Source: Opitutaceae bacterium
GTDB lineage: Bacteria > Verrucomicrobiota > Verrucomicrobiia > Opitutales > Opitutaceae
Assembly (NCBI GenBank): GCA_027482185.1
Contig: JAIXWF010000014.1
Location: 1-64,000 of the forward strand
Length of the DNA: 64,000 nt
Direction: 5' to 3'
Shown: piece after piece, positions 3,446 through 51,851 of the stretch
How positions within the stretch are numbered: position 1 is the first letter of the stretch
How the letters are laid out: each line of letters opens with the position of its first letter
Notes under the pieces: model-generated
Told to the model about the DNA's origin: nothing
The model's database searches: none
What the model saw: only the letters and a program-made list of their open reading frames with translations
Translations under genes and position numbers: made by a program

Positions 3446-3684
3446 AGCGGCCTCGATGGGGTCAATTCGCGAATCGCGAAGGACCAATTGTACAGGGGCG
3501 GTCCGCCGAACGTTGATGGCGCCGCGATAAGGGGGGCGCGAATTGTGCCCGGGTGCCCCGAAGCTTGAGGATCGCTGCGAACCGGCTTTGGGGCGCGACA
3601 AGCTGCCTACGGGCGGCCCGCTCCGGCAAACTGCGATGGTCGGGTATCTGCGCTCAGCTGACTGACTCTCTCGGATCGGCTCCT
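3446..3684. repeat. Interspersed repeat, copy C (3' truncated)
   Basis: This copy is very close to copy A in its first half and to copy B in its second half. It stops after ctctcggatcggctc and lacks the last ~75 bp found in A and B. It carries the same TTCGCGA-A-TCGCGAA palindrome near 3465-3479. It lies in the gap between the small TA-like gene and the sigma factor gene. The rest of 3232-3846 shows no gene. Confidence 0.85.
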
Positions 3685-3846
3685 TTGCCCCGCGAGTTGG
3701 CCTTCGCCTAAAACGTCCGCCCGGCGTTTCCGTTTAGCCCGATTTGAAAATAGTTTTCCGCGGTGCCGGGCCGCCCGAATTCCCCTCGACGGGCGCGGGG
3801 TGATCGGCGATGCCAACCCGCGCGGGTTCCGACCGCGCCCAACCCC

Positions 3847-21502: not shown

Positions 21503-21527
21503 TCCGTCGCCGCTACAGGCGGCGGCG

Positions 21528-21660
21528 GAGTTGAGAGATGAGAGTTGAGGGCTGAGAGACGGAAGCGGGACAGATACCCCAAAAAAAAATCCGTCCGCGG
21601 CGGCGCCGCGTATCGATCGGTGGTTCGGTCTCTCAACCCTCAGCTCTCAACTCTCAACTG
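21528..21660. repeat. Inverted pair of heptamer arrays (TTGAGAG family) at a convergent junction
   Basis: The left arm at 21528-21558 (gttgagagatgagagttgag) and the right arm at 21629-21660 (ctctcaactctcaactg) are complementary. They frame a ~70-bp spacer between two convergent 3' ends. The structure could act as a bidirectional terminator, although neither arm is followed by a T tract. Confidence 0.75.
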
Positions 21661-21674
21661 CGCGGGTACCGCGC

Positions 21675-29557: not shown

Positions 29558-30460
29558 GTGCAAAGCTACCATCTCGACCACCTCCAGCATCTCGAAACCG
29601 AGGCGATCCACATCATGCGCGAAGTCGCGGGCGAATTCGAACGTCCCGCGCTCCTCTTTTCCGGCGGCAAGGACTCGATCTGTCTCCTGCGCCTCGCGGA
29701 AAAGGCCTTCCGGCCCGCGGACATCCCGATGCCGTTTCTCAACGTCGACACGGGCCACCACTTCCCGGAACTGAACGAGTTCCGCGACCGCCGCGCCAAG
29801 GAACTCGGCGGCAAGCTCATCGTCCGCAAGGTCGAGGACGCCATCGCCCAGGGCATCGCCGTCCCGGCGCCCGGCGAGATCAGCCGCAACCGCCTGCAGA
29901 TCCCGACGCTGCTCGCGGCGATCGAGGAGTTCCGGTTCGACTGCTGCATCGGCGGCGCGCGCCGCGACGAGGAGAAGGCCCGCGCCAAGGAGCGGTTCTT
30001 CAGTTTCCGCGACAGCTTCGGCCAGTGGGATCCGAAGAACCAGCGCCCCGAGATCTGGAATCTCTACAACGGCCGGCTCAATCCGGGGGAAAACATGCGC
30101 GTCTTCCCGCTCAGCAACTGGACGGAGATGGACGTGTGGGAATACATCCAGCGCGAAAAGCTCGAGGTCCCGAGCATCTATTTCAGCCACACCCGCAAGG
30201 CCGTCCGCCGGGGCGGCCAGTGGCTGCCGGTCAGCGACATCCTGCCGCCGAAACCCAACGAGGACGTGCGCGAGCTCGTCGTGCGCGTGCGCACCATCGG
30301 CGACATCATCAGCACGGGCCTGGTCGAGTCGCCCGCGACGACGACCGCCGACATCATCGCGGAAATCGCCGCCGCCCGCGTGACCGAGCGCGGCTCCCGC
30401 GCCGACGACAAATCCTCCGAGGCCGCGATGGAAGACCGCAAGAAGGCAGGCTATTTCTAA
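29558..30460 (+). CDS. cysD: Sulfate adenylyltransferase subunit 2
   Basis: The 300-residue protein starts at GTG 29558 (MQSYHLDHLQHLETEAIHI), the usual N terminus of CysD. It has the ATP-pyrophosphatase loop SGGKDS (residues 35-40), NVDTGHHFPE, CCIGGARRDEEKARAKER and the conserved end EAAMEDRKKAGYF. With CysN it makes APS from sulfate and ATP. It lies 38 bp after cysH on the same strand. A heptamer array separates it from cysN. Confidence 0.96.
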   Translation: MQSYHLDHLQHLETEAIHIMREVAGEFERPALLFSGGKDSICLLRLAEKAFRPADIPMPFLNVDTGHHFPELNEFRDRRAKELGGKLIVRKVEDAIAQGIAVPAPGEISRNRLQIPTLLAAIEEFRFDCCIGGARRDEEKARAKERFFSFRDSFGQWDPKNQRPEIWNLYNGRLNPGENMRVFPLSNWTEMDVWEYIQREKLEVPSIYFSHTRKAVRRGGQWLPVSDILPPKPNEDVRELVVRVRTIGDIISTGLVESPATTTADIIAEIAAARVTERGSRADDKSSEAAMEDRKKAGYF

Positions 30461-30461
30461 A

Positions 30462-30491
30462 CCGGAAAGCGGAGACCGGAGACCGGAAACC
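30462..30491. repeat. Heptamer array (CGGAGAC family) between cysD and cysN
   Basis: Degenerate units cggaaag, cggagac, cggagac and cggaaac follow directly after the cysD stop codon inside the presumed operon. Confidence 0.7.
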
Positions 30492-30566
30492 CGACGTTTC
30501 TCGGCCGGTCGCCGCTTCCCGCGTGGTCGCGACCTCTACCGCAATTTACCGAATCCCGATTTTCCA

Positions 30567-31925
30567 ATGTCCGTTTCCGCGAACTCCGAACTCCGCACTC
30601 CGAACCCTGATCCGCGTCCCGCGCTGCCGGTCGACATCCTCCGCTTCAACACCTGCGGCAGCGTCGACGACGGCAAGTCCACGCTCATCGGCCGGCTGCT
30701 CTACGATTCGAAATCGCTCATGGAGGACCAGATCGAGGCCCTCGAGCGTTCCGCCGACATCACCGGCGGCGGCCAGATCAATCTCGCCAACCTCACCGAC
30801 GGCCTCCGCGCCGAGCGCGAGCAGGGCATCACGATCGACGTCGCCTACCGCTATTTCGCGACGCCGCGCCGCAAGTTCATCATCGCCGACACCCCCGGCC
30901 ACGTGCAGTACACGCGCAACATGGTGACGGGCGCCTCGACGGCGAACCTCTCCATCGTGCTCGTCGACGCCCGCCTCGGCGTGATCGAGCAGAGCCGCCG
31001 CCACACCGCGATCGCCTCGCTCCTGCGCATTCCGCACCTCGTCGTCGCCGTCAACAAGATGGATCTCGTCGGCTGGAGCGAGCAGCGCTTCCTCGAGATC
31101 CGCGCGCAGTTCGAGGAGTTTCTCCCGCGCCTCGACATCAAGGACGTGAAGTTCATCCCGCTCAGCGCGCTGAACGGCGACAACGTCGTCGATCCCTCGC
31201 CGCACACGCCGTGGTACTCGGGCCCGACGCTGCTCGGCCACCTCGAGACGGTGCACATCGCGAGCGACTGGAATCTCCAGGGCTTCCGCCTCCCGGTGCA
31301 ATGGGTGAACCGGCCGAACAACCCGAAGAATCCCGACCTGCACGACTTCCGCGGCTTCAGCGGCCAGATCGCCGGCGGCATCGTGCGCACCGGCCAGAAG
31401 GTCATCGCGCTGCCCGCGGGCATCGTCACGACCGTGAAACAGATCTGGACCTACGACGGCCCGGTGCAGGAAGCGTTCTGCCCGCAGTCCGTCACCGTGG
31501 TGCTGGAACACGACGTCGACGTCAGCCGCGGCAGCATGCTGATCGGCCCGGACCATTTGCCCGGCGCGAGCAGCGAGCTGCACGCCGAAGTCTGCTGGAT
31601 GCACCCGCGCGGGCTGCAGGCCGGCCGCAAGTACCACCTCAAACACACGACGCACACGGTGCAGGCCGTGGTCACGGAACTCGTGAACAAGCTCAACGTG
31701 TCCACGCTCGAGACCGAGGCCGCGCCGGCCGAGCTCAACGTGAACGATATCGGCGAGATCAAGCTGCGCACCTCGAAGCCGATCGTGTTCGACGGCTACG
31801 GGACCAACCGCCTGACGGGCTCGTTCATCCTCATCGAGCAGGGGACCAACGCGACGGTCGCGGCCGGCATGCTGATGCCGCCGCGCGAAGTCGTGAAGTC
31901 GGAGCACGGCGACTACGTGATCTGA
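30567..31925 (+). CDS. cysN: Sulfate adenylyltransferase subunit 1 (GTPase)
   Basis: The 452-residue EF-Tu-like GTPase has G1 GSVDDGKST (residues 31-39), the REQGITIDVAYRYF switch region, G3 DTPGH, G4 NKMD and two beta-barrel domains. It drives CysD-catalysed APS formation. There is no fused APS kinase domain, so cysC must be elsewhere if PAPS is the CysH substrate. The N-terminal ~20 residues (NSELRTPNPDPRP) come from a heptamer array and replace the usual short leader. It ends 7 bp before the regulator gene. Confidence 0.96.
   Translation: MSVSANSELRTPNPDPRPALPVDILRFNTCGSVDDGKSTLIGRLLYDSKSLMEDQIEALERSADITGGGQINLANLTDGLRAEREQGITIDVAYRYFATPRRKFIIADTPGHVQYTRNMVTGASTANLSIVLVDARLGVIEQSRRHTAIASLLRIPHLVVAVNKMDLVGWSEQRFLEIRAQFEEFLPRLDIKDVKFIPLSALNGDNVVDPSPHTPWYSGPTLLGHLETVHIASDWNLQGFRLPVQWVNRPNNPKNPDLHDFRGFSGQIAGGIVRTGQKVIALPAGIVTTVKQIWTYDGPVQEAFCPQSVTVVLEHDVDVSRGSMLIGPDHLPGASSELHAEVCWMHPRGLQAGRKYHLKHTTHTVQAVVTELVNKLNVSTLETEAAPAELNVNDIGEIKLRTSKPIVFDGYGTNRLTGSFILIEQGTNATVAAGMLMPPREVVKSEHGDYVI
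30581..30610. repeat. In-frame heptamer array (GAACTCC family) at the cysN N terminus
   Basis: Units gaactcc, gaactcc, gcactcc and gaaccct encode NSELRTPNPD just after the start codon, ahead of the conserved GTPase domain. Confidence 0.75.
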
Positions 31926-31932: not shown

Positions 31933-32346
31933 GTGAAGATCTCCGTCAAAGTCGACTATGCCTGCCGCGTGATGGTCGAGCTCGCGCGGCTGCACGGTTC
32001 CGGGGAACTGGGCCAGATCGAGCACCTCGCGCGGACGGAGGCGGTGCCGGCCAATTTCCTCGCGCAGATCCTCCTGAAGCTGCGCGACGCGGGCCTGATC
32101 GCGAGCCGCCGCGGCAACCACGGCGGCTACACGTTGGCGAAGGCGCCGGACGAGATCTCGCTGCACGACATCCTGGTCGCGGTCGAGGGCCACTGCCTCC
32201 ACCTCAGCGGCAACTACGACGGCCGCAGCGGCCGCCGGCTGAAGAAGGTCTGGGACGAAATCGGCTGCGCCCTCGCGACGAAGACGAAGTCCTACACGCT
32301 CGACCAATTGGTCACGAAGCAGCCGGCGGAGATGTATTATATCTGA
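31933..32346 (+). CDS. Rrf2-family transcriptional regulator
   Basis: The 137-residue protein starts at GTG, 7 bp after cysN. It has the Rrf2 winged helix (MKISVKVDYACRVMVELARL, VPANFLAQILLKLRDAGLI, SRRGNHGGYTLAKAPDEISL). The three closely spaced Fe-S cysteines of IscR are not present; only isolated Cys residues remain. It therefore resembles the sulfur-sensing CymR-type members rather than IscR. Its place at the end of the sulfate operon suggests it controls cysHDN and cobA-cbiX-cysI, possibly through the repeats at 28679-28707. Confidence 0.88.
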   Translation: MKISVKVDYACRVMVELARLHGSGELGQIEHLARTEAVPANFLAQILLKLRDAGLIASRRGNHGGYTLAKAPDEISLHDILVAVEGHCLHLSGNYDGRSGRRLKKVWDEIGCALATKTKSYTLDQLVTKQPAEMYYI

Positions 32347-32349
32347 GGA

Positions 32350-32534
32350 GAGAGTTGAGTGTTGAGAGCTGAGAGTTGAGAGCCGGTCCGCTGGTTCACC
32401 CGAGCTCGTCCCGTTGCGATTGCTGGACTGACGGTTGAGAACAGGAACAACCGTTTGCGCGCCAACGGCGGGAAACGGGACGCCCATGCGCCATGGGTTC
32501 GATCGCTCCACCCTCAACACTCAACTATCAACTT
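32350..32534. repeat. Inverted pair of heptamer arrays (TTGAGAG family) at a convergent junction
   Basis: The left arm at 32350-32383 (gagagttgagtgttgagagc and more) and the right arm at 32510-32534 (ccctcaacactcaactatca) are complementary. They flank ~125 bp with no gene, between the regulator and the esterase, which converge. Confidence 0.7.
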
Positions 32535-33500: not shown

Positions 33501-35759
33501 TCAGGCCGGCGCGACGGCGACGGCGCAGGCTTTGTAGGACGGTTGCCGCGAGTGCGGATCGAAGGCGGGAAAGGTCAGCCGGTTCATTTCCGGGAAATGC
33601 AAGGGCATGAAGAGTTGGCGGCGTTGCACGGTGGCGGTGACGACAGCGACGGCGTTGACCGTGGCGCGGCGCGAACGGATGGCGACGGTTTGGCCGGAGA
33701 AAAGGCCGAGGCCGGCGGCATCGTCGGGATGGATTTCCACCGTTTGCACGGTCGGGGCGAGTTTGCGCAGGACGGCGCTCTTGTCGGTGCGCGAGCCGGT
33801 GTGCCATTGCGCGGAGGAGCCGCGGCCGGTGAGCAACGTGAACGGGAACGCGTCGTCCGTCGGTTCCGGCACGGGCCGCGGCGGATCGAAGAGAAACCGC
33901 GCGCGCCCGTCGGGATGGAAGAACCGGCCGTCGGCGAAGAGGCGGCGTTCGGTGAGACCGGAAACCGGAGTGCGGAAACCGGATTTCAAAGATTCGGAAC
34001 GCTTCCGGTCTCCGGTCTCCGCACTCCGGTTTTCGACCCACGGCCACTGGATTCCGCCCGCGGCTTCGATGGCGGCGTAGTCTTCGATGCCGGTGAAGTC
34101 GCAGGGTTGGCCGGCGGAGAGCCGCTTCAGGATTTGGAAAACGGCGGCGGGCGAACTCCATTCGCGGAAGCGGTCGCCGCAGCCCCAGGCTTCGGCGACG
34201 AGTTTGAAAATCGAGAAATCGGCGAGGGCCTGGCCGGGGGCGCGGGCGACTTTGCGCACGACGCCGAAGCGGCGCTCGCTGTTGATCAAGGTGCCGTCTT
34301 TCTCGCCCCAGCCGGCGGCGGGCAACACGAGATCGGCGAGGGCCGCGGTCTCGGTCGTGACGTACATGTCCTGCACGACGAGGAAATCGAGTTTGCCGAG
34401 AATCTCGCGCGCGCGGCTTTGGTTGATCCACGAATGCGCCGGATTGGTCGCGATCACCCAGAGGCCCTTGATCTCGCCGCGGTCGACGGCGTCGAGAATC
34501 TGGTCGTAGGCGTAGCCGCCGCGGTCGGGGATGAGGGCGGGATCGAGCCCGAGGAGGCCGGCGACGTGGGCGCGGTGGGCGGGGGTGGCGGTGTCGTATC
34601 CGCCGAGCAACGACGTGGCGTTGCCGAACAGCCGCGAACCCATGGCGTTGCACTGGCCGGTGATCGAGTTGGCGCCGGTGCCGGGGCGGCCGAGGTTGCC
34701 GGTCAGCAAGGCGAGATTGATGATCGCCTGGGCGGTGCGGGTGGCCTCGTGGCTTTGGTTGACGCCCATCGTCCACCAAAAGGAAACGCGTTCGCGTTCC
34801 GCGATGATCGCGGCGAGCCGGTGCAGCGTGGCGACGGGGACATCGGTCGCGGCGGCGACGCGGTCGGGCGTGAACTCCGCGACGAAGGCGGCGAAGGCGT
34901 CGAAGCCGGTCGTGTGGGCGGCGACGAAGTCCGTCTTCACGGCGCCGCGGGCGATGAGCAAGTGGGCGAGGCCGTAGAGGAACGTGAGATCGCTCTTCGG
35001 GCGGAGCGCGACGTGCAGCGTGGCGGCCTGGGCGGTTTCGGTGCGGCGCGGATCGACGACGACGATTTCCGGGGCGCGGCGGTTGCGCATCACGCGTTGC
35101 CACATGATCGGATGCGCGAGGCAGGGATTGGCGCCGATGAAAACGAGGGCGTCGCTCTCCTCGAAATCCGCGTAGGTGAACGGCGGGGCGTCGAAGCCGA
35201 ACGATTGCTTATAGGCGACGTGCGAGGTCGCCATGCATTGGCGGGTGTTGGAGTCGCAATGCAGGCCGCCCATCCCGAATTTGAAGAGGGCGCCGAGGAG
35301 CGCCATTTCCTCGGTGACGATCTGGCCGGTGCTGAGAAACGCGATCGCGTGCGCGCCGTGGTCGCGTTGGATACGTTTGAATTCCGAGGCGAAACGTTCG
35401 AGCGCGCGGGACCAATTCGCGGGTTCGAGTTGGCCGGTCGCGGCGTTGCGCAGGAGCGGAACGGTGGCGCGGTCGGGCGCGGCGAGGGGCGTGAGGGCTT
35501 CCCAGCCTTTCGGGCAGGCCATGCCGAGATTGACCGGATGGTCGGGATCGGGGGAGAGGTTGATCGCCTCGCCGGCGGCGTTGAGATGGACCTGCAGGGA
35601 ACAGCCGGTGCTGCAGAATCCGCAGACGGATTTGGCGGTGGCGGCGGGCTGCAGGCGGGCGGGGATTTGGCCGAGGCCGAAGTCGGCGGGGCGTTGCACC
35701 AGGTCCGAGGTCATCGGCCCGGTGCGCGCATGCAGCAGTTGGTCGAGCGCGGAGCTCAT
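33501..35759 (-). CDS. nasA: Assimilatory nitrate reductase, molybdopterin catalytic subunit
   Basis: The 752-residue molybdopterin oxidoreductase has the N-terminal 4Fe-4S motif (Cys46, 49, 53 and 82: CGFCSTGC then ACPKGW), [21 protein letters not shown] and a C-terminal molydopterin-dinucleotide-binding domain ([29 protein letters not shown]). There is no Tat signal, so it is cytoplasmic and converts nitrate to nitrite. No C-terminal 2Fe-2S domain is present, so electrons must come from another protein, most plausibly the DmsB-DmsC fusion whose stop overlaps this start (ATGA). A heptamer array inserts ~25 residues (about 575-601) before the C-terminal domain. It is the last gene of the nitrate operon. 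Confidence 0.92.
33955..34035. repeat. In-frame palindromic heptamer arrays (CGGAGTG/CGGAAAC family) in nasA
   Basis: Two arrays face each other: ccggagtgcggaaaccgg on the left and ccggtctccgcactccgg on the right, around ~25 bp. They encode [19 protein letters not shown] and neighbours. The mRNA could form a hairpin here. The frame is kept. Confidence 0.8.
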
Positions 35760-37570
35760 GCGGGTTGGCCCGGCATTTTGGGCGCGTCGACGGCGCGGAA
35801 GAAGAGGAGTCGTTCCGCGAACTCGCCGGCGAGCAGCGGGACGAGCGCCCAGGCGCCGAGGCCGGCGAGGAGCGCGGGCACGGCGAACGCGGCGAACGTG
35901 AGGCGGACGGCGAGCAGGCCGCGGAGCGGGCCGCGTTGCAGGCGGGCGGAGAGGTTGCCGCCGCGGAGCGTTGAAAGTTCGAGCGCGACCTTGGCGAGCA
36001 GCGCCGCGGCCGCGAGCGGCGGCGCGACGACGGCGGCGGCGGCCAGGGCCGCGGTGCCGAAGAAACGGGGAAAGGTCTGCGTCGCGCGCCAGAAGCGGCG
36101 CCGCGTATCCACGTAGATCATCGCGGAGCAGATCAGGCCGGCGAGGCCGACGCCGGCGGCGGCAAGATTGAGAATACGCAATTCGTTCTGCGGCAGGCTC
36201 GGATTGAATCCGCGGAGTTCCGCCGTGGCGGCGGCGACCGCGAGGGCGAACCAAAGCCCGAACAGCATGGCCTCGCGGCTGAGCCAACTGCGGCGCCAGC
36301 CGAGGAAGATCCGCCACGCGCGGAGCGGTTGGCCGAGGTGAAATACGCTCGCGGCCAAGCCGACGGCACCGAGGGCGGCGGCTCCCGAAGTAACCCAAGA
36401 GCTTGCTTTATGGGGAGCGGCCGCGGAGAGGACGGAGAGACCGAGGGCGGCCGGCAGCAAGGTGAGCATCACGGCCAGCGGGGCGTGCGCGGGCTGGACG
36501 CGGAGGGCGTTGGCGTCGGCGGCCTGCAGGCCGGGCGGCAACGGGCGGCGGGAAACGTAGCGCGTCGTCGGGCGCGTGTAGGCGGGATCGGGCGCGGCAG
36601 GTAGAAAACCGGAGTTCGGAGACCGGAGACCGGAGGAGGGAATACCGGAATGCGGAGACCGGAGACCGGAGACGGACGGATCAAAACCGGAGTTCGGAGA
36701 TCGGAAACCGGAAACGGAGAACTCGGGCTTTGGGCTTTGGGTTTTGGATTCTGGGTCGGCCGCGAAGGGCGCCGAGGCGGTCGAGTTTGGGGTTCGGGGT
36801 TCGGAGTTGGGAGTTGGGGCGGCGGCCGCCGCCGAGTTTGGAGTACGGGGTTCGGAGTTCGGAGTTAGGGAAAGGGGATTGGTTTTCCGGTATCCGGTTT
36901 CCGAATTCCGGTTTTCGTACTCCGGTCTCCGCATTCCGGTCTTGATCGTGACGATCCGGATCGCGTGGGTGGGGCAGGCTTGGGCGCAGGCGGGAGCTTC
37001 GCCGGCGGCGAGGCGGCCGTGGCAGAGGTCGCATTTGCGCACGATGCCGAGGCGCGACGAGAACTTCGGCACGTCGTACGGGCACTTCAAAATGCAGTAG
37101 CTGCAACCGATGCACTGGTCGTCGAGGTGGCGGACGATGCCGGTGACGGGATCCTTTTCGTAGGCGAGGACGGGGCAGCCGTGGAGGCACGCGGGATCCT
37201 CGCAGTGGTGGCAGGCGGTCGTGACGGTTTGCGTGAACGGATGCGCGGGATCGAGGCCGACGAGTTGGCCGACGTCGCGCCACGTTTCCGTTTCGTCGAG
37301 GCCGTTGAGCGAGTGGCAGGCGGAGACGCAGGCCTTGCAGCCGGTGCAGGAATCGAGATCGACCTCGAAGGCGTACTGTTCGCCCGGGCCGGGGGCGGTG
37401 AGGGGAATCAGTTGGGAGTTGAGAGCCGAGCGTTGGGGGACGGAGCCTGAGTCGTGCGCGGACGCGAAGCGCGCGACGGGAGTGTCGAGGCGGGTCTGCT
37501 CGGCGAGCAGTTCCGCGATGAAGGTCTGCACCGAGTCGGGCGCCGAGGGTTTGGGACTCTCAACTCTCAT
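35756..37570 (-). CDS. Fused DmsB-DmsC-like electron-transfer protein of the nitrate operon
   Basis: The 604-residue fusion has an N-terminal ferredoxin-like DmsB part with four 4Fe-4S motifs ([41 protein letters not shown] and CDLCHGRL...CAQACP, residues ~75-210). A low-complexity linker of about 110 residues follows (~212-323), made of heptamer repeats. The C-terminal part is a DmsC-like membrane anchor with about eight hydrophobic helices (e.g. [19 protein letters not shown]). DmsBC normally carries electrons between the quinone pool and a molybdoenzyme, and here it is coupled by ATGA to a nitrate reductase. That suggests quinol-dependent nitrate reduction on the cytoplasmic side. The first codons lie in a heptamer array, so the exact start is uncertain. 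Confidence 0.85.
36599..36935. repeat. Large in-frame compound heptamer array in the DmsB-DmsC linker
   Basis: About 335 bp combine several families: cggagac/cggagtt at 36605-36715, tttgggc/tttgggt at 36727-36755, gttcgga/gttggga at 36785-36870 and a second cgg block at 36890-36935. They encode runs such as [10 protein letters not shown] and [10 protein letters not shown]. Confidence 0.85.
37408..37438. repeat. In-frame heptamer array near the DmsB-DmsC N terminus
   Basis: Units cagttgg, gagttga and gagccga encode QRSALNSQL just upstream of the first iron-sulfur motif. Confidence 0.6.
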
Positions 37571-37579
37571 CTCTCAGCT
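37557..37579. repeat. Heptamer array overlapping the DmsB-DmsC start codon
   Basis: On the minus strand the array reads gctgagagatgagagttgag and contains the ATG itself (37570-37568). The repeat therefore supplies the translation start and a purine-rich GAGAG just upstream of it. Confidence 0.65.
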
Positions 37580-37585
37580 TGTTAC

Positions 37586-39361
37586 TCAATACACGTCGCG
37601 GGCGTAGCGCTTCGCGGCCTTGAGAGATTGAAGGTAGGCGGCGGTCTGTTCGGGGGATTTGCCGCCGGCACGTTCGACCACGGTGTGCAAGGCGGCGTCG
37701 ACGTCCTTGGCCATGCGGGTCGCGTCGCCGCAGACGTACACATGGGCGCCGGCTTCGAGCCACGCATAGAGCTCGGCGGCGTTTTCCAGCATGCGATGCT
37801 GCACGTAGATTTTCTCCGCCTGATCGCGGGAGAAAGCGGTGTCGAGGCGCGTGAGCAGGCCGGCGGATTGGAATTCCAACAATTCGTCGCGGTAGAGAAA
37901 ATCCGTGGCGGCGCGTTGGTCGCCGAAGAAGAGCCAGTTCTTTCCTGTGGCGCCTACGGCGCGGCGCTCGTGCAAGAAGGCGCGGAACGGAGCGATGCCG
38001 GTGCCGGGCCCGATCATGATCATCGGGGCGGTGTTGTCGGTCGGCGGGCGGAAAGCGCGGTTGCTGTGGGCGAAGATTGCGACGCGGGTCGCGCCCGGGA
38101 CGGCTCGTTCGGCGAGGTACGTGGAGCAAACGCCGATTCGGGCGCGGCCGGCGGCCTCGTAGCGAACGGCGCCGACGGTGAGGTGCACGCGGCCGGCGTG
38201 GGCGCGGGGCGACGAGGAAATCGAGTAGAGGCGCGGTTGAAGTTTGCGGAGGGCGGCGACGAAGCTGGCCGGCGAGATGATTGCGGATTGCGGATTGCGG
38301 ACTGCGGATTGCAGGACGGCGTCGATGACGTGGAGTGGGGCGGCGGTTGCGTCGGTTGAACCGCAGAGGGCGAGGAGTTCGGCTGTCGGTTTGCCGAGAT
38401 CGTAGAATTCGGCGAGGGCTCGGCGGAGCGGGATCGAAGCGCCGTCGGGGTCGGGGACGGCTTCTTCGCCGTCGGCCCCGAGGGCGGCGAGGACGTCGGC
38501 GACAAGTTGCGGGCAGTTGTGCGGGAAAACGCCGAGGGCGTCGCCGGCCTCATAGACGAGACCGGAATCGGCGAGGTCGAACTCGACGTGGTTGACCTGT
38601 TTCGCGGAGCCGGCGCCGTTCAGCGGGCGGGAGACGAGGAGCGGGGCGGCGAACGGATTGGAACGAGACGGAACTCCGGCGCCGGAGGCGGCGGACTTCG
38701 GTTCTGGGGTTTGGGTTTTGGGTTCTGGGGCGGCGGAGGCCGCGGAGTTTGGAGTTTGGGGTTCGGAGTTTGGAGTTGGGGTCAGCGCGGAGAGGGCGGC
38801 GTCGAGCCAGGCGGTGAATTTGGTTTCGTAGTCGAGGTCGCAGTCGACGCGCGGGTGGACGCGGACGGCGCCGCGTTTTTCCAGGAACGCATCGAAGTCG
38901 GCGCCGCATTTGCAGAACTGGGTGTAGTTCGTGTCGCCGAGGGCGCAGACGGAGTAGCGGAGAGTTGAGAGCTGAGAGTTGAGCGTTGAGAGCTCGGTGT
39001 GCAGGGCCTGGGCGGAGTCGGGCGGTTCGCCGTCGCCGTAGGTGCTGACGATGACGAGGACGTTCTTTTCCTGAGCGAGGCGGGCGGCGTCGGTTTGCGC
39101 CATGTCGAGGACAGTCGCGGCGAAGCGGCGTTGGCCGGCGGCCTTGGCGGCGCGTTTGGCGAGGCCCTCGGCGGTGCCGGTTTGCGAGCCGAAGAGAATC
39201 GTGAGCGGTGTGAGGGCGGCCGGCGAAGGGTCCCGGGTCTGGGCTTTGGCGTCCGGGGGGACGGAGCGGGAGAAGAGGCCGGCGAAGAAGCCGTTGAGCC
39301 AGGCGCGTTGCTCCGGGGAGAACGGCGCGGTCTCGGGGATGAGCGGGACGGTCGCGTTCAT
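37586..39361 (-). CDS. cysJ: CysJ-like NADPH flavoprotein in the nitrate operon
   Basis: The 591-residue diflavin reductase has a short N-terminal FSPEQRAWLNGFFAGL motif. A flavodoxin FMN domain (ILFGSQTGTAEGLAKRAA, STYGDGEPPDSA) and an FAD domain (RLYSISSSP, GVCSTYLAER) follow. The NADP domain reads IMIGPGTGIAPFRAFLHERR, FFGDQRAATDF and VYVCGDATRMAKDV. It is annotated as the sulfite reductase alpha subunit, but its place directly after nirA and before the nitrate reductase suggests a role as electron donor for nitrite or nitrate reduction, or for both N and S assimilation. Three heptamer-array segments lie inside it, one of them within the flavodoxin domain. ATGA overlap with nirA. The ATG at 39361 is used because upstream in-frame codons belong to nirA. 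Confidence 0.88.
   Translation of the reverse strand: MNATVPLIPETAPFSPEQRAWLNGFFAGLFSRSVPPDAKAQTRDPSPAALTPLTILFGSQTGTAEGLAKRAAKAAGQRRFAATVLDMAQTDAARLAQEKNVLVIVSTYGDGEPPDSAQALHTELSTLNSQLSTLRYSVCALGDTNYTQFCKCGADFDAFLEKRGAVRVHPRVDCDLDYETKFTAWLDAALSALTPTPNSEPQTPNSAASAAPEPKTQTPEPKSAASGAGVPSRSNPFAAPLLVSRPLNGAGSAKQVNHVEFDLADSGLVYEAGDALGVFPHNCPQLVADVLAALGADGEEAVPDPDGASIPLRRALAEFYDLGKPTAELLALCGSTDATAAPLHVIDAVLQSAVRNPQSAIISPASFVAALRKLQPRLYSISSSPRAHAGRVHLTVGAVRYEAAGRARIGVCSTYLAERAVPGATRVAIFAHSNRAFRPPTDNTAPMIMIGPGTGIAPFRAFLHERRAVGATGKNWLFFGDQRAATDFLYRDELLEFQSAGLLTRLDTAFSRDQAEKIYVQHRMLENAAELYAWLEAGAHVYVCGDATRMAKDVDAALHTVVERAGGKSPEQTAAYLQSLKAAKRYARDVY
38281..38314. repeat. In-frame heptamer array (GGATTGC family) in the CysJ-like gene
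   Basis: Units ggattgc, ggattgc, ggactgc and ggattgc encode LQSAVRNPQSAII in the FAD/connecting domain. Confidence 0.8.
38700..38781. repeat. In-frame compound heptamer array in the CysJ-like linker
   Basis: gggtttg/ggttttg units and then ggagttt/ggagttt/ggttcgg units encode PNSEPQTPNS and PEPKTQTPEPK between the FMN and FAD domains. Confidence 0.8.
38958..38992. repeat. In-frame heptamer array (TTGAGAG family) inside the flavodoxin domain
   Basis: Units gagagtt, gagagct, gagagtt and gagcgtt encode ELSTLNSQLSTL between two conserved flavodoxin segments (GDGEPPDSAQ and RYSVCALGDTNY). It is thus a surface-loop insertion within a folded domain. Confidence 0.82.
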
Positions 39362-41217
39362 GCGGACAGGAGCTCCTGCAGTTCCTTCACGGAGTGGCGG
39401 CGCGACCATTGGACGAAGGTTTCGCCGCTGGTGCGGCGCGCGGTGTAGGTGACGAGAATTTTGTCCACGAGCGGATTGAGTTCGGAGGCGCGCACACCGC
39501 GGAAGATTTCGCGGGCGATGCCCTGCTCGTGGTCCATGCCGCCGCCGAGGACGACGTGGTAGCCCTCGGTGCCGTCGGCGAGCTTGGCCCCGACGAAACC
39601 GAGATCGCCGCAGTAGTGTTGGGCGCAGGAGTGCGGGCAGCCGGTGAAGTGGATGTTCACGGGGGCGCCGGGGGCGGGGCGGTCGGCGAGAAACTTCTGG
39701 AGGGCGACGGCGTGGGCCTTGGTGTCGGCGGCGGCGTATTTGCAGCCGCGGCTGCCGGTGCAGGCGATGATGCCGCCGGTGGCGAACGAGGCTTCGGTAT
39801 CGCCGCCGAGACGGCGGGCGCCGCGGGCGACGGTCTCGGCGAAAGCGTCGGATACGTGCGGCAAGATGACCGTTTGCCAGACGGTGAGCCGGAGTTCGCC
39901 GCGGCCGTAGTGGTCGGCGAGGTCGGCGAGGGTGCGCATTTGGCGGCCGGAGAGGCGGCCGGCGGGCAGGCCGATGCCGACGGAGTTGAGGCCGCGCTGG
40001 GCCTGGCGGCGGATGCCGAGCCAGGCGTGTTTCTCGACGGGGCGGCGCGGTTCGCAGGCGGAGAGCGGGAGGCGTACGAGCGGGAAGGCGAGTTTGGCGG
40101 CGGCGGCGGCGAGAAACTTTTCCACGCCCCAGGCCTCGAGGAGGTATTTCAGCCGCGCCTTTTTGCGGTCGGTGCGGCAGCCGTTTTCGGCGAAGACGCG
40201 GATGAGGGCGACGGCGAGGGCGACGGCCTCGGACGGTTTCACGAGCAGGCCGGTGTCGCGGGCGAAATCTTTGTGGCCGGTGATGCCGCCGAGTTGAACC
40301 CGGAAATAGATTCCGGGTTCAACGGTTGAAAGTTGAAGGTCGGAAGTTGAAAGACCGGGAGACGGAGCGGGCGGTTGAGCGGTGGGAGTAGAGAGCGAGG
40401 CTTCCGTGACGCGGACGGCGATGAAGCCGATGTCGTTGGTGTCGGCGGCGACGGAGAGGCTGCCGCCGTTGTCGAAGGCGACGTTGAATTTGCGGGGGAG
40501 GCCGTAGAGATCGCGGTGGTTGAGAATGTAGTGGTGGAGCGCCTTGGCGTAGGGGCGGACGTCGAGGACTTCGTCGGGGGCGAAACCGGAATCCGGCGAG
40601 GCGGTGATATTGCGGATGTTGTCGGCGCCGGCGCCGCGGGAGGTGAGGCCGAGTTCCTGGACGCGGGTGAGGACGCGGACGAGATCGCGGGGTTTGAATT
40701 CGCGGATCTGCAGGTTGCCGCGGGTCGTGATGTGCGCGTAGCCGCCGCCGAGTTCGTCGGCGAGATCGGCGAGGCCGCGGATTTGCGCGGCGGTGATCTC
40801 GCAGGCGGGCACGCGCAGGCGGATCATGAAACTGTCCTGCGCGGGCGCGACGTAGAAGAGGCCCGAGGTCTTGAAACGGTAGGTGTTTTCGGGGTCGGGC
40901 TTGAGGTCCTCCTCGGCGTGACGGAGGAGGCGGTCCCAGGCGTCGAGCGGATTTTCGTCGTACTTCCAGCGTTCCTCTTTGCAGAGATCCGAGAGCGGCG
41001 TGCCGAAGACGGTGTCTTCGGGGGGCGGCCCGGCGAGGTTCGGCGTGGCGGCGGCCGCGGGCGTGCCGGTGAGTTGGCCCGCGGCGGTTTGGCCGACGAA
41101 CGGCAGCAGGCCGCCGGCGCCGAGGCCGGCCATGAAGCCGGCGAGGTACTCCTTTTGCTCCGGGGAAAAGGGGCCGCCCGGAGCGGAGGGGGACGCAGGC
41201 GAGGCGGGCGAACTCAT
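39358..41217 (-). CDS. nirA: Ferredoxin-type nitrite reductase (siroheme, NirA-like)
   Basis: The 619-residue protein has the nitrite/sulfite reductase duplicated fold (FMIRLRVPACEITAAQI, YAHITTRGNLQIREF). Its siroheme/4Fe-4S ligands are CTGSRGC and TGCPHSCAQHYC. It reduces nitrite to ammonium. An N-terminal PFSPEQKEYLAGFMAGL motif closely matches the CysJ-like neighbour's N terminus. Motif order and length suit NirA. A heptamer array inserts ~17 residues (LSTSDLQLSTVEPG region) between the two halves. It is coupled to the CysJ-like gene by ATGA, and its siroheme would come from cobA-cbiX at 27-28 kb. Confidence 0.93.
   Translation of the reverse strand: MSSPASPASPSAPGGPFSPEQKEYLAGFMAGLGAGGLLPFVGQTAAGQLTGTPAAAATPNLAGPPPEDTVFGTPLSDLCKEERWKYDENPLDAWDRLLRHAEEDLKPDPENTYRFKTSGLFYVAPAQDSFMIRLRVPACEITAAQIRGLADLADELGGGYAHITTRGNLQIREFKPRDLVRVLTRVQELGLTSRGAGADNIRNITASPDSGFAPDEVLDVRPYAKALHHYILNHRDLYGLPRKFNVAFDNGGSLSVAADTNDIGFIAVRVTEASLSTPTAQPPAPSPGLSTSDLQLSTVEPGIYFRVQLGGITGHKDFARDTGLLVKPSEAVALAVALIRVFAENGCRTDRKKARLKYLLEAWGVEKFLAAAAAKLAFPLVRLPLSACEPRRPVEKHAWLGIRRQAQRGLNSVGIGLPAGRLSGRQMRTLADLADHYGRGELRLTVWQTVILPHVSDAFAETVARGARRLGGDTEASFATGGIIACTGSRGCKYAAADTKAHAVALQKFLADRPAPGAPVNIHFTGCPHSCAQHYCGDLGFVGAKLADGTEGYHVVLGGGMDHEQGIAREIFRGVRASELNPLVDKILVTYTARRTSGETFVQWSRRHSVKELQELLSA
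40318..40374. repeat. In-frame heptamer array (TTGAAAG family) in nirA
   Basis: Units ggttgaa, agttgaa, ggtcgga, agttgaa and agaccgg encode SPGLSTSDLQLSTVEPG, right before the conserved GIYFRVQLGGITGHKD strand. Confidence 0.8.
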
Positions 41218-41326
41218 GAACCGGAAAGGAGCACCCGCGGTGCCATGGCCGGCACCGCGGGGAATGAAGCGGCGGAATCCTTTTTGTGCATCCGATGAGG
41301 CCGGTTCATGGCGGCCGGAGCCAAGG

Positions 41327-42826
41327 TCAGAGGTTCAGCGAGACCTGGAGATAGAGGTATTTGCCGTCCTTGGAACCGCCGTTGTCGGAGAGGGATTCCT
41401 TGATGTAGCGGCCGCGGAAGTAACGGCTGACGCCGAGCTCGATTTGCGTGGAAGGAATCGGATTCCAGCCGGCGACGAGATCGAGTTCGCGGCCGAGGCT
41501 GTTGCCGTGGCCGCGGGTGGCGTAGCCGCCGGCATTGCGGAAGACGCCGCCGACGTTGTACCAGAAATCGGCGGAGGTCGCGAGGTACTGGACGTGGCCC
41601 TCGAGGGCGAAGCTGAGGTTGGCGGCGGGCTTGAAGGCGTAGACGAGGCGGAGGTCGTGGAGATTCTGCAGGCTCGAGAAGTCCATGTATCCGTAATGCA
41701 GATGCGTCGTGGCGAAGAGATTCTGGAACGTCTGGCTCTTCGCGTCGGTGCCGTTTTTGTCGCCGGAGGCGTAGCTGTAGAGCAGGCCGAGGCGGGGTTG
41801 CCAGGCGTAGTCGGTCCAGGTGTAGCCGCCCTGGAGCACGGCGGCGTTGGCGTTCTGGTCGAGACGGGCGGCGGCGCGGACGGCGGCGGGCGCGGCGGCC
41901 GGTGCGGTCGTGGCGCGGTTGCCGAACTGGTGCATCAGCTCGATGCCGTAGTCCCAAGGTCCGTAGGCGCCCGGCTTGGAACGGATGCGCAGGCCGGCGG
42001 TGTAGAGGTCCTGTTTCGCGGGGAGACGGAACGGGGCGGCGACGCCGGTGAAGTCGACGCCGGCGATGTCGGCCGAGACGTTGCGGGCGAGCAGGTAGGT
42101 TTCGACGACGGCTTTGGCGGCGAGGGTGGGCCAGTTGAAGTAGGCCCCGGAAAACGTGTCCTTGCCGAGATGGGAACGGTTGAAGTTGCGGTGGTCGTTG
42201 TAGACGAGACCGCCGGCGAAGACATCGACGCCGAAGACCGAGTTTTGCCAGCGCACCTTCGCGGTGTCGAAGGTGCGGCCGTTGTTGTTCCAGCGGAGAT
42301 GGCCGAGGAGGCGTTGGTCGCCGTAGAAGAGTTCCTGGCGGCCCACTTTCACGGAGACGGGAAATTCCTTGTGGTTGCCGAGGTAGAGAAACGCCTGGTG
42401 GAGATCGAGCGGACCGTCGCGCTCGGCGAGGCCCTTGCCGGGGCCGGCGGCGGCGAAGCGTTCGTCGCCGATGGAGTAGCTGCTGCGGCCCTCGACGGTG
42501 AACGCGAGGCGTTTGCCGGCGTAGGCGACGCGCGGCATGACCTTGGTGAGCCAGTAGCTGTTGTTGTTGTCGAAGAGCGGATTCGCGGAGAAGTCCCAGT
42601 TCTGGCCGGAATCGGTGAAGCCGGCGCCGTCCTTGGCCTCGAGGCGGGCGCGGACGGTCACGCCGATGTCCCACTCGGACATGTAGGGATCGGAGCCGCG
42701 GAGGCGTTCGTTGGCGTAGCCGGGAAACGGGCGCGCCGGGAGCGACGGCGTGTATTGGGCCAAGGCGGACGTGGCGGCGAGCAGGGCGGCGCCCGCGGAG
42801 CGGAGGAGGGAACGGAGCGGTGTCAT
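41327..42826 (-). CDS. Alginate-export-type outer-membrane porin
   Basis: The 499-residue protein has a signal peptide (~1-23) and an outer-membrane barrel of the alginate_exp type. It shows alternating beta strands with conserved VSVKVGRQELFYGDQRLLG, WNNNGRTFDTAKVRWQ and HLHYGYMDFSSLQNLHDLRL, and the C terminus ends LYLQVSLNL. The place between nirA and the nrt ATPase genes suggests it admits nitrate across the outer membrane rather than exporting alginate. No alginate genes are near. The ATG at 42826 gives the signal peptide directly. Confidence 0.85.
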   Translation of the reverse strand: MTPLRSLLRSAGAALLAATSALAQYTPSLPARPFPGYANERLRGSDPYMSEWDIGVTVRARLEAKDGAGFTDSGQNWDFSANPLFDNNNSYWLTKVMPRVAYAGKRLAFTVEGRSSYSIGDERFAAAGPGKGLAERDGPLDLHQAFLYLGNHKEFPVSVKVGRQELFYGDQRLLGHLRWNNNGRTFDTAKVRWQNSVFGVDVFAGGLVYNDHRNFNRSHLGKDTFSGAYFNWPTLAAKAVVETYLLARNVSADIAGVDFTGVAAPFRLPAKQDLYTAGLRIRSKPGAYGPWDYGIELMHQFGNRATTAPAAAPAAVRAAARLDQNANAAVLQGGYTWTDYAWQPRLGLLYSYASGDKNGTDAKSQTFQNLFATTHLHYGYMDFSSLQNLHDLRLVYAFKPAANLSFALEGHVQYLATSADFWYNVGGVFRNAGGYATRGHGNSLGRELDLVAGWNPIPSTQIELGVSRYFRGRYIKESLSDNGGSKDGKYLYLQVSLNL

Positions 42827-42870
42827 GGTGCGGTCGGTGGGTGAAAAACGGCGGGAAAAGGCGAACGGGG

Positions 42871-43722
42871 TCAGACGGAAGCGGGGACGGGGGAAGGCCG
42901 GGCGGGAAGGTGGCCGGGATCGCCGGCGGGGCGGCCGGGGCGGAGGTGGGAACGTTCCTCGAGGAAACCGATGAGCTGGGCGCGCAGGGCGTAGTAGGCC
43001 GGGTCCTCGAGCAATTGGCGGCGCGAGCGCGGGCGCGGGAACGTGACCTCGAGAATCTCGCCGACGGTGGCGGCGGGGCCGTTGGTCATCATCACGACGC
43101 GGTCGGAGAGGAAGAGGGCTTCGTCGACGTCGTGGGTGACCATCAGCGCGGTCTTCTGGTCCTTCTGCCAGAGATCGAGGAGAACCTCCTGCAGCTCGTA
43201 GCGCGTGAGCGAGTCGAGCATGCCGAAGGGTTCGTCGAGCAGCAGCATCTTGGGCGAGAGCGCGAAGGCGCGGGCGATGCCGCAGCGCTGGCGCATGCCC
43301 TGGGAGAGTTCGGCCGGCTTCTTGTGCATCGCGTCGGCGAGGCCGACGACGGTGAGGTAGTATTCGGCGATCTGTTCGCGCTCCTCGCGGTCGGCGGTGT
43401 AGTAGACCTGGTCGATGCCGAGCATGACGTTCTCGAACGCGGTGTACCACGGGAGGAGGCAGGGGGCCTGGAAAACAACGCCGCGGTCGGGGCCGGCGGA
43501 GACGACTTCCTTGCCGGAGAGGATGATGGCGCCGGAGCTGACCTCGGTGAGGCCGGCGATCATCGAGAGGACGGTGGATTTGCCGCAGCCGGAGTGGCCG
43601 ATGAGGGTGATGAATTCGCCCTTCCGGATCTTCAGATCGAAATTCTCGACGATGACGGCGGGCTGGCCGGAGGGCGACGGGTAGACTTTGCCGAGCCGGG
43701 AGATTTCGAGGAAGGGCTTCAT
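42871..43722 (-). CDS. nrtD: Nitrate ABC transporter ATP-binding protein (NrtD-type)
   Basis: The 283-residue ATPase has Walker [10 protein letters not shown], signature [17 protein letters not shown], Walker B MLLLDEP and the H-loop [13 protein letters not shown]. The core matches the NrtC/NrtD/SsuB group of nitrate/sulfonate importers. ATG 43722 ([14 protein letters not shown]) is preferred. An ATG at 43776 would add 18 residues taken from a heptamer array and abuts the upstream stop. It pairs with the next ATPase to form a heterodimer driving NrtB. Confidence 0.9.
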
Positions 43723-43727
43723 GGGAA

Positions 43728-43760
43728 ACTGCGGATTGCGGAGTGCGGATTTCGGATTGC
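43728..43760. repeat. Heptamer array (GGATTGC family) before the nrtD start
   Basis: Units ggattgc, ggagtgc, ggatttc and ggattgc lie between the two ATPase genes. If translation starts at 43776 they are coding ([12 protein letters not shown]). Confidence 0.72.
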
Positions 43761-43776
43761 CGGCGTCGGCAGCCAT

Positions 43777-48031: not shown

Positions 48032-48967
48032 ATGAAGCCGACGCTCGACAGCCGTCAGCTCCACGCGTTTGCCGCGCTCGCCCGGCGCGGCAGTTTCACG
48101 CTGGCGGCCAAGGACCTGTTTCTCACCCAATCCGCGGTCAGCCACGCCATCAAGGCCCTCGAGGACGACGTGGGTTGCCGGCTGCTCGACCGCGTGGGCC
48201 GCAAGGTGCTGCTCACGCAGGCCGGCGAGCAGTTTCTCCGGCACACGGAAAAGATCCTCCGCGAAATGGAGACGGCCCGTTCAGGCCTGGATACGCTGAC
48301 GAAATGGGGCCACGGGCGGCTGCGCGTGGGGGCGAGCACAACGGCGTGCCAACATATCTTGCCGACGGTGCTGCGGGAATTCCGCCAGAGCTATCCGAAG
48401 TGCGTGATCCGCATCGAGCCCGGCGACCACGGGCACCAACTCGAGTTGCTGCGGGGCGGGCACATCGATCTGGCGGTGATCCTCGAACCGCCGGGGCAGG
48501 CCCTGGCGGAGTACACGTTTGTGCCGCTGTTCCAGGATGAACTGCGTTTCGTCGTGGCGCCGCTGCATCCGTGGGCGGCGCTGGGCCGGGCGCCGCGCGA
48601 GTCGATCGAGGCGGAGACGCTCGTGCTCTATAACAAGACGAGCCAGACGTTCCGCCTGGTGAACGATTATTTCCGCGACGAAAAGATCACCCTGAGCAAC
48701 TTCATCGAGCTCGGGAGCATGGAGGCGATCAAGGAGCTGGTGAAGATCGGCATCGGCGCCGGCGTGCTCGCGCCGTGGATCGCGCGGCAGGAATTGGAAA
48801 GCGGCGCGCTGGTGTCGTTGCCGCTCGGCCAGCGCAAGCTCAAGCGCCGTTGGGGTGTCGCCCATCTGAAGGCCCGGCGGCTCGCGCTGGCGGAAGAGAC
48901 CTTTGTCGGTCTGTGCGTCAGCGTGACGGAAGTGATGGGGCTGAGCGCGCCGGGAGTGGCGGCGTGA
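48032..48967 (+). CDS. LysR-type transcriptional regulator of the nitrate operon
   Basis: The 311-residue LTTR has an N-terminal winged HTH (residues ~6-65: LHAFAALARRGSFTLAAKDL, TQSAVSHAIKALEDDVGCRL) and a substrate-binding effector domain (GRLRVGASTTACQHILP, GHIDLAVILEP, IGIGAGVLAPW). It is divergent from the NasS-like gene with a shared operator region, so it most likely controls the nitrate assimilation operon. Family members of this kind include CysB/Cbl and NasR-like LTTRs, but the effector is unknown. Length is typical. Confidence 0.92.
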   Translation: MKPTLDSRQLHAFAALARRGSFTLAAKDLFLTQSAVSHAIKALEDDVGCRLLDRVGRKVLLTQAGEQFLRHTEKILREMETARSGLDTLTKWGHGRLRVGASTTACQHILPTVLREFRQSYPKCVIRIEPGDHGHQLELLRGGHIDLAVILEPPGQALAEYTFVPLFQDELRFVVAPLHPWAALGRAPRESIEAETLVLYNKTSQTFRLVNDYFRDEKITLSNFIELGSMEAIKELVKIGIGAGVLAPWIARQELESGALVSLPLGQRKLKRRWGVAHLKARRLALAEETFVGLCVSVTEVMGLSAPGVAA

Positions 48968-48982
48968 GCCGCCGCAGGCGGC

Positions 48983-49026
48983 GGCTGAAAGTTGAAGGCT
49001 GAAAGTTGAAAGTCCGGAGCGGACTT
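48983..49026. repeat. Heptamer array (TGAAAGT family) and hairpin at a convergent junction
   Basis: Units ctgaaag, ttgaagg, ctgaaag and ttgaaag are followed by a perfect 7-bp hairpin, aagtccg-gag-cggactt (49010-49026). It lies between lysR and cysE, which converge. No poly-T tail. Confidence 0.72.
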
Positions 49027-49054
49027 GCGAGCGGCGCGCCCGCGAGCGCGCGTC

Positions 49055-51716: not shown

Positions 51717-51740
51717 AGCCCGCCGCGGGGCGGCGGGCGG

Positions 51741-51838
51741 CTTTCAGCGTTCAGCTGTCAGCGATCAGCGATTGCGAATCAGCTGAAGGCCTAAAGGTGA
51801 AAGCCTAAAGCTGACAGCTGATGGCTGATAGCTAAGAG
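51741..51838. repeat. Inverted heptamer-like arrays (CAGCTGT/GATCAGC family) at a convergent junction
   Basis: ttcagctgtcagcgatcagc on one side and ctgacagctgatggctgata on the other are complementary around a short centre. A ctaaaggtgaaagcctaaag segment sits between. The array occupies nearly the whole phoH-DUF6580 gap. Confidence 0.75.
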
Positions 51839-51851
51839 CCTGCCGCGCGCC

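Follow-up and report, generated by a model that had tools for sequence, protein, structure and literature searches.

Why should genes for conserved enzymes contain runs of a 7-bp unit, a length that does not fit the codon? The question is raised by the nitrate operon of an Opitutaceae bacterium (GenBank assembly GCA_027482185.1), which lies in a stretch of 64,000 nucleotides (positions 1 to 64,000 of contig JAIXWF010000014.1) that was analysed as a whole and that we call the window. Arrays of degenerate heptamers occur there inside the genes for a molybdopterin nitrate reductase (nasA), a DmsB-DmsC fusion (dmsBC) and a CysJ-like flavoprotein (cysJ), and directly before nrtD. We consider it probable that they are whole or partial arms of dispersed, non-autonomous palindromic elements, similar to miniature inverted-repeat transposable elements (MITEs) and repetitive extragenic palindromic (REP) sequences, which sometimes lie in frame within genes and work like the Rickettsia palindromic elements (RPEs).

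An array was counted when at least 16 of 21 positions matched at a lag of 7, and the period-7 arrays were found both by Tandem Repeats Finder and by a separate period scan. Between positions 33955 and 43760 there are 13 of them, compared with a mean of 0.09 and a maximum of 2 in 300 dinucleotide shuffles. One is in nasA, seven are in dmsBC and four in cysJ, where codon shuffles give 0.012, 0.006 and 0.004, respectively, and the reading frames of the three genes stay open across the arrays. An earlier reading of this DNA (the original prediction) had placed arrays in the same genes and beside nrtD, which was confirmed, and also in nirA, where none reaches the threshold and a single weak tract was found (Table 1). 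An Rfam search of the 64-kb window gave no match.

The analysis was extended to 1.6 Mb of the same genome (G000), taken in 20-kb stretches, which with the window made 1.66 Mb or 26% of the genome. Genes were called with a simple hexamer model and their start sites are approximate; tracts with a G+C of 0.75 or more and overlaps with segments of period 3, 5, 6, 8 or 9 were left out of the array count. Many of the arrays are copies of one another, because their unit variants keep the same order at different loci: heterogeneous 21-mers are shared by 190 pairs of arrays, against 54 (standard deviation 10) after shuffling of the unit order, and 28-mers by 26 pairs, against 3.4 in the shuffles. For eight of the 14 operon tracts, stretches of 21-31 bp recur exactly in other parts of the sample; for control segments from the same genes (n = 73) the exact copies have a median of 15 and a maximum of 19 bp. 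The nasA array matches at 31 of 31 positions at two other locations in the genome, the AAACTCC array of the second cysJ site has an exact copy of 30 bp elsewhere, and the AACTCTC/AGCTCTC array of the same gene has one of 31 bp.

Among the 256 arrays of the sample, 187 are intergenic, 43 have their middle in a gene and 26 lie at edges; those found deep in genes, at least 90 bp from both ends, number 31 and are spread over 14 genes, with 12 in nasA, dmsBC and cysJ. Their density is 328 per Mb in the window versus 88-110 per Mb in the other stretches. The idea of an invasion of the nitrate operon by heptamers thus overlooks what matters most: the arrays are a feature of the whole genome, mostly intergenic and located at gene 3' ends, and are partly the arms of palindromes. 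The arrays whose first base lies 0-30 bp past a stop codon comprise 72 in purine sense, 14 in pyrimidine sense and 10 neutral ones; near start codons (-25 to 45 bp) there are 22 pyrimidine-rich and 2 purine-rich arrays. The purine bias on the stop side persists for units that are open on both strands (27 to 9) and is thus not solely an effect of stop codons. Spacers of 40-400 bp contain arrays in 59 of 136 convergent, 62 of 432 tandem and 5 of 165 divergent cases. A quarter of the arrays are palindromic: for 66 of the 256 an inverted partner lies no more than 300 bp away, which holds for 4 of 768 random places and for 55 of 768 places near other arrays. The purine arm precedes the pyrimidine arm in 59 of the 63 oriented arrays. 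The polarity and the spacer rules would both be expected if many elements were palindromes with the purine arm first, placed at the 3' ends of genes. When array pairs overlapping a better pair were left out, 38 non-overlapping palindromes were extracted, and four of these lie within genes, one in nasA, one in dmsBC and the others on contig 3.

In nasA, the complete palindrome is in frame and, in coding sense, its purine arm (34000-34032) comes first and its pyrimidine arm (33962-33983) second. The tract corresponds to residues 575-586, with the second arm extending to about residue 605, between the molybdopterin and the dinucleotide-binding domains defined by Pfam. The linker in which it lies, from GGIQWP to ERRLF, has 15-45 amino acids across 11 genomes, and its contents differ from one to another: units of the CCGGAGA type are present in G000 and of the GCGGATT type in G160 (19/21 matches), with other period-7 tracts in G145 (16/21), G159 (15/21) and G099 (16/21), and G161 and G164 (loci L267 and L266) have a 22-bp palindrome in frame. 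The core of this palindrome has nine exact copies in each of these two genomes, some of them close inverted pairs, and none in six other genomes; it is a REP-like repeat. The RNA of the linker folds with a z score of -2 or below in 7 of the 11 genomes (G000 -5.6, G160 -4.9, G145 -2.7, G159 -2.7, G147 -2.0, G161 -8.2 and G164 -7.4), the others being G168 (-0.3), G088 (-0.7), G099 (-1.6) and G166 (+1.5). The nasA linker is a variable site at which palindromic repeats turn over, different kinds being present in different species; these may be separate insertions, or others may have overwritten an old palindrome.

In dmsBC the insertion is clear. The linker has 126 amino acids here versus 21-45 in 10 relatives, and the extra block, consisting mostly of arrays with short spacers, is specific to this lineage, being absent from 10 of 10 relatives. 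Its units (CCGGAGA, AACTCCG/AAACTCC and AAAACCC) lie inside a large palindrome made by the CCGGAGA arms, and the block is placed between the Fer4 domain, which ends at residue 193, and the DmsC domain, which starts at residue 387. Short period-7 tracts of its own were seen in G147 (L268), in the linkers of both dmsBC (16/21) and cysJ (17/21).

The situation is different in cysJ, where the heptamer sequence replaced or overwrote the linker at least as much as it lengthened it, and there are no clean insertions. The alignment with homologues, which the original prediction had proposed as a check and which covered the genomes of relatives and solved structures, therefore gave an insertion for dmsBC, a linker of variable length for nasA and no such result for cysJ. 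The companion claim that the arrays sit between conserved motifs is correct for nasA, for the dmsBC block and for the second cysJ site, all located between Pfam matches, but the first cysJ tract lies within the flavodoxin match (residues 55-183) and the third in the FAD-binding part.

Table 1. Positions in the window of the genes, arrays and palindromes discussed in the text
Feature	Positions	Strand	Description
Array pair outside the operon	30457..30613	.	A gene ending at 30460 has a purine-rich array at its stop codon, and the gene called at 30567 has a pyrimidine-rich one at its start
Array pair between convergent genes	32345..32534	.	Intergenic; purine array, then pyrimidine array
nasA, molybdopterin nitrate reductase	33501..35759	-	Pfam PF00384, PF01568, PF04879; best solved relative periplasmic nitrate reductase 2jio
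Complete heptamer-armed palindrome in nasA	33959..34035	-	In frame; CCGGAGA units; RNA fold z -6.5
dmsBC, DmsB-DmsC fusion	35756..37531	-	Pfam Fer4_11 at 103-193, DmsC at 387-502
Composite linker block of dmsBC	36583..36965	-	Seven arrays and short spacers; RNA fold z -4.6
cysJ, CysJ-like flavoprotein	37586..39361	-	Best solved relative sulfite reductase flavoprotein 6efv
Third cysJ site	38272..38316	-	AATCCGC array in FAD-binding part; peptide LQSAVRNPQSAI; no inverted partner
Second cysJ site	38697..38781	-	Linker that joins the flavodoxin and FAD domains; arrays of AAAACCC and AAACTCC units; no inverted partner
First cysJ site	38955..38995	-	AACTCTC/AGCTCTC array in flavodoxin domain; peptide ELSTLNSQLSTL; no inverted partner
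Weak period-7 tract in nirA	40322..40354	-	14/21 matches; longest exact copy elsewhere 18 bp, within control range
Array before nrtD	43727..43762	-	AATCCGC units, directly before the nrtD ATG (MKPFLEI...) and after the TGA of the upstream gene

Other places of the sample deserve mention. In the window, an in-frame array with the pyrimidine strand coding (peptide PSALSSQLPP) is found at 13005-13044, in a gene of 1101 amino acids outside the nitrate operon; arrays or palindromes of other heptamer units occupy convergent intergenic spacers at 21502-21674, 48967-49054 and 51716-51851; and the intergenic regions 2039-2482 and 2950-3846 have 241 bp in common at 89.6% identity. On contig 3, a gene of 1994 amino acids (L030, G000 C3:427206-433190) contains seven deep arrays, which belong to several unit families; a palindrome is formed by two of these arrays.

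The comparison of intergenic regions revealed a dispersed element of 150 bp, with the ends GCCGGAATCATGC.../...GCATGAGTTCGGC. These ends were scanned for in the G000 sample and in 0.55 Mb of G150, a close relative with a median identity of 93% over 75 reciprocal best hits, and 142 end-like sites were obtained, as compared to a mean of 12.5 and a maximum of 39 for shuffled ends. Of 35 inward pairs of ends, 33 fall below a limit of 250 bp, being spaced by 116-157 bp, and 23 are spaced by exactly 150 bp, with 143 and 157 bp among the other values. In 19 of these 33 elements TNA stands outside both ends, and in 17 of the 19 its middle base is the same on both sides, which indicates a target duplication since inverted ends would instead give complementary bases. 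Duplications of 8-14 bp were also considered and rejected, their excess being modest and the 3-bp TNA duplication fitting better. TNA is the target used by a subgroup of IS5. It is the stop codon of a called gene in 23 of the 33 cases, where a fraction of 0.441 is expected if CTNAG outside gene interiors were used equally (p = 0.004); no title describing such targeting of stop codons by MITEs or IS5-type elements was found among the matches listed, which is not proof of absence. One site was found both filled and empty, with the 3-bp duplication: at L303 the spacer measures 329 bp in G150 versus 176 bp in G000, and the difference of 153 is 150 plus 3.

Other sites with an array in either of the two genomes were compared by eye. 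At L310 and L323 different palindromes occupy the same place, the L323 spacer of G150 and its G000 counterpart (C20:312015-312223) having different families of heptamer units; at L324 a remnant is left in G000; at L293, L298 and L312 the arrays are related but diverged, two of them being below the threshold in G000; and at L332 the array exists in G000 only. Core matches of the 150-bp family number 21 in the G000 sample and 26 in that of G150. With at most 15 candidates scored per genome, G000 and G150 each reached this limit, three others had fewer or weak matches, and 52 of 57 genomes had none. By its terminal inverted repeats, its target-site duplication and its dispersed, patchy and non-coding copies, this family resembles a MITE.

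According to the explanation that we favor, elements with arms built of consecutive degenerate 7-bp units would spread their copies through the genome and settle mainly at the 3' ends of genes. Occasionally they would land within genes, to survive where the frame is kept, no stop codon arises and the place is a flexible linker or loop, and their 7-bp period read as codons would give heptapeptide repeats. At least one family, that of 150 bp, would insert into C-TNA-G, often at the stop codon TGA, and duplicate TNA, so that the host gene would keep its stop. A transposase acting in trans may move these elements. The coding families (CCGGAGA, AACTCCG and AATCCGC) may move in the same way as the 150-bp family, to which we liken them because of their shared anatomy, namely heptamer arms, the purine arm first, palindromy and dispersal. 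Tracts with a single arm, as in cysJ, presumably come from such elements, and slippage might add or remove one unit of the arms.

A number of results weigh against this explanation. Six of the 14 operon tracts (two in cysJ, two in dmsBC, and those of nirA and nrtD) have copies of 16-19 bp, within the range of the controls. Clear inverted partners are limited to the 66 of 256 arrays mentioned above and are lacking for three of the seven arrays of dmsBC and for all four of cysJ. With 30 amino acids, the nasA linker is equal to that of three relatives and not longer than most. The first cysJ site, with 21 amino acids, is no longer than that of the shortest relative (21-47), the second has 39 versus 22-63, and the third has 27, a length shared by two of 12 relatives while the other 10 have 21-23; counting these lengths lowered our confidence slightly. 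Among the 8 comparable sites of G000 and G150 (from 55 conserved gene pairs) there is one clean empty site, and it belongs to the 150-bp family, of which no copy (0/33) is inside a gene. No convincing autonomous element with the ends of this family was found in the two samples, where two longer pairs of ends, 2.0 and 3.9 kb apart, are without matching TNA. A 154-nt stretch of one 150-bp copy, covering most of it with the left end excluded, folds no better than shuffles (z 0.33), and direct repeats of at least 8 bp at the ends show a modest excess (8 of 43, where 6.7% is expected).

The alternative that survives best, which we nevertheless hold to be unlikely, is local replication slippage, by which each array would have grown in place from a chance seed without any mobile element; such an origin was proposed for heptanucleotide repeats by Mrazek (2007), in the account given in part of PMC4679880. 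It would agree with the dominance of period 7 in the sample, where there are 185 segments of this period versus 18, 5, 1 and 1 for periods 8, 10, 11 and 13 (the codon multiples 6 and 9 give 78 and 65), with the existence of 143- and 157-bp elements that differ from 150 bp by one unit length, with the unit-by-unit divergence of orthologous arrays in G000 and G150, and with cysJ tracts that replace rather than lengthen. Slippage in place does not predict that different loci have the order of their variants in common far above unit shuffles, that palindromes have the purine arm first, that sharp 150-bp elements are bordered by a TNA duplication, or that a whole block is missing from the dmsBC of relatives.

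Still less probable is that the arrays are selected parts of 3' untranslated regions, such as terminators, stabilizers of messenger RNA, G-quadruplexes or antisense roadblocks, and that the coding ones are by-products. Their strong preference for 3' ends and convergent spacers and their fixed polarity would suit such a role, and resemble what is described, in the part of the source available, for the GGGNATC repeats of Xanthomonas and Nostoc (PMC4692102). However, neither GAGAGTT nor GAAAGTT, the consensus units of the commonest two families, has a GG run, so that G-quadruplexes cannot be the common cause, the presence of arrays is patchy among species of one genus, and the unit family differs between G150 and G000 at the same spacer.

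The strand on which the arrays are read raises the question of an orientation-dependent insertion, for instance coupled to transcription or replication. The original prediction had stated that in these genes the coding strand is invariably the pyrimidine-rich one, which is contradicted by nasA 34000-34032 and dmsBC 36882-36914, both purine-rich on the coding strand and each paired with a pyrimidine-rich arm further on; in addition, the array at 36719-36757 was also scored as opposite (46% purine) and that at 38697-38732 as neutral. It is true that the units TTGAGAG and TGAAAGT give TGA on the purine strand, but others (CCGGAGA, CGGAGTT and GCGGATT) are open on both strands. Tabulated over the 1.66 Mb, the bias exists, as the 31 deep coding arrays comprise 20 with the pyrimidine strand coding, 8 with the purine strand and 3 neutral ones, and 20 of 28 differs from one half (p = 0.036). 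Yet in a donor pool of 166 oriented intergenic arrays the pyrimidine strand has 2.72 open frames and the purine strand 1.48, and stop codons alone predict a fraction of 0.648, with which the observed value agrees (p = 0.56). Selection against stops is thus sufficient, and of the two mechanisms that had been suggested, selection after insertion or orientation-dependent insertion, the first is supported and the second is not needed inside genes, its excess having disappeared once stops were counted. The palindromes point in the same direction, since an open frame is present in 4 of 4 of those in genes versus 13 of 34 others (p = 0.03). As nasA and dmsBC also hold both arms, and a palindrome has no orientation, we regard insertion of this kind as very unlikely. 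The least credible proposal is that the peptides are ordinary fast-evolving linkers without any repeat invasion, since the varying length in relatives (nasA 15-45 and the cysJ sites 21-63 amino acids) speaks for it but period 7 is not a codon-level feature, codon shuffles give 0.004-0.012 arrays per gene, and 8 of the 14 tracts share 21-31 bp of identical DNA with other places in the genome.

If the arrays are parts of mobile palindromes, their distribution and a possible mover are of interest. Exact triplets of CCGAACT give 106 overlapping matches in this genome, which is one of three to have them among the 145 genomes sampled from the phylum; three copies of a control heptamer (CGACATC) occur in none of the 145. 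Triplets of GTTGARR occur in 14 of 57 relatives, and the number of overlapping matches ranges from 0 to 133 among genomes of the genus. In named genomes, CCGAACT was found in at least 114 stretches, the 80 listed belonging to Cyanobacteria, Omnitrophota, Nitrospirae, Thermodesulfobacteriota, Blastocatellia, Bacteroidetes, Verrucomicrobia and others. These 80 loci (L129-L208) contain 190 segments of period 7, query arrays included, against 27, 6, 3 and 11 of periods 8, 10, 11 and 13; other heptamers and some palindromes lie beside the CCGAACT unit, and in 50 of the loci 19 of 126 arrays have an inverted partner, one "array" being a masked run of N. As for the mover, a REP-associated tyrosine transposase (RAYT) is possible but gets no support from the counts. 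Hits to Y1 (RAYT-type) transposases show no correlation with GTTGARR counts (rho 0.0005 in 37 genomes of the family), and G010 has 13 such hits and no GTTGARR match. At least one Y1 hit is present in each of the 14 array-positive genomes. Elsewhere in the family 19 of 23 genomes have one (p = 0.28), and among all other genomes 28 of 43 (p = 0.012), the latter comparison being confounded by family. G000 has a single RAYT-like gene (C20:427781); neither of its flanking spacers contains an array, although arrays lie 3 kb upstream.

Comparison with known systems places these elements near several of them. REP elements carry a GTAG tag. The likeness to REPs and REPINs lies in the short palindromes in spacers and in the dispersed REP-like repeat found in the same nasA linker of G161 and G164; the difference from the REP/RAYT system lies in the heptamer arms and in the number of Y1 hits, which does not follow that of arrays. 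RPEs, of about 105-150 bp, are described in the available parts of two papers as lying in frame, and tolerated, in unrelated conserved protein genes (PMC2229807, PMC10969869). The likeness consists of four palindromes in four genes, all with an open frame, and concerns the way of working, absence in relatives being established for dmsBC; unlike RPEs, the present elements have arms of 7-bp tandem units of several families, and most copies are intergenic at gene 3' ends. Bacterial MITEs such as Correia, ERIC, RUP and YPAL are presented in the same source as non-autonomous, shorter than 200 bp, with inverted ends and target duplication, intergenic and sometimes in frame (PMC2229807), but here a TNA duplication often at stop codons and heptamer arms are found.

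Heptanucleotide repeats have also been published. Those with the GGGNATC motif are 7-bp tandem repeats, dispersed, less than 50 bp from stops and with the G-rich strand sense; they are under-represented in coding regions, form G-quadruplexes and, according to the part of the report available, are generally not associated with mobile elements (Rehm 2015; PMC4692102). Placement at stop codons and polarity are common to both, as seen above from the counts at 0-30 bp, but our arrays comprise several unit families, palindromes and in-frame tracts, and their commonest consensus units, AACTCTC (37 of 256 arrays) and AAAGTTG (31), have no GGG run on either strand, single variants such as GAGGGTT holding one. 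In Geobacter metallireducens, heptanucleotide elements lie inside and between genes, another class having mostly five heptanucleotides, and the portion of the source available interprets them, unlike ours, as regulatory RNA or regulator binding sites and makes no mention of a target duplication (PMC2700814). The TAACTGA repeats of marine Beggiatoaceae are described in part of another report as 7-bp tandem repeats mainly upstream of start codons (PMC4679880). PARCELs, palindromic coding repeats spread between taxa, are depicted in the available part of their source as a 25-residue motif in repeat proteins (PMC2996958), whereas our tracts are in metabolic enzymes, and a minisatellite within a MITE is mentioned for Porphyromonas in what was available of PMC4596501. 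For heptanucleotide or heptamer repeats in Verrucomicrobia, the literature search met with one paper, on reading-frame transitions. The statement that no named mobile element has this signature is accordingly right for the exact signature, but the RPEs and the heptanucleotide repeats of Xanthomonas, Nostoc and Geobacter had been reported. Cyanobacterial STRRs are 7-bp tandem repeats too. Together with these and the TAACTGA repeats, to the extent that the latter are covered by the source available, our arrays are part of a scatter of such repeats across distant phyla.

A more tentative idea, which we think possible but would not expect to hold, is that heptamer-armed palindromes form a single class of mobile repeats not yet recognised in bacteria, with a 7-bp period coming from the moving machinery and a stop-codon address given by C-TNA-G. 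The heptanucleotide repeats scattered among cyanobacteria, Xanthomonas, Geobacter and others would then be relics of this class. The recurrence of the CCGAACT unit across phyla bears on this question. For the proteins, heptapeptide linkers like LSTLNSQ, SELRTPN and SAIRNPQ could be mistaken for functional features, and the repeats account for them. The nasA linker, with unrelated palindromic repeats in sister species, is a natural experiment in the tolerance of insertions, and the rule by which heptamer repeats are placed is separable from the formation of G-quadruplexes. If our explanation is true, landing on stop codons and re-creating them by target duplication would be a simple and harmless way to spread.

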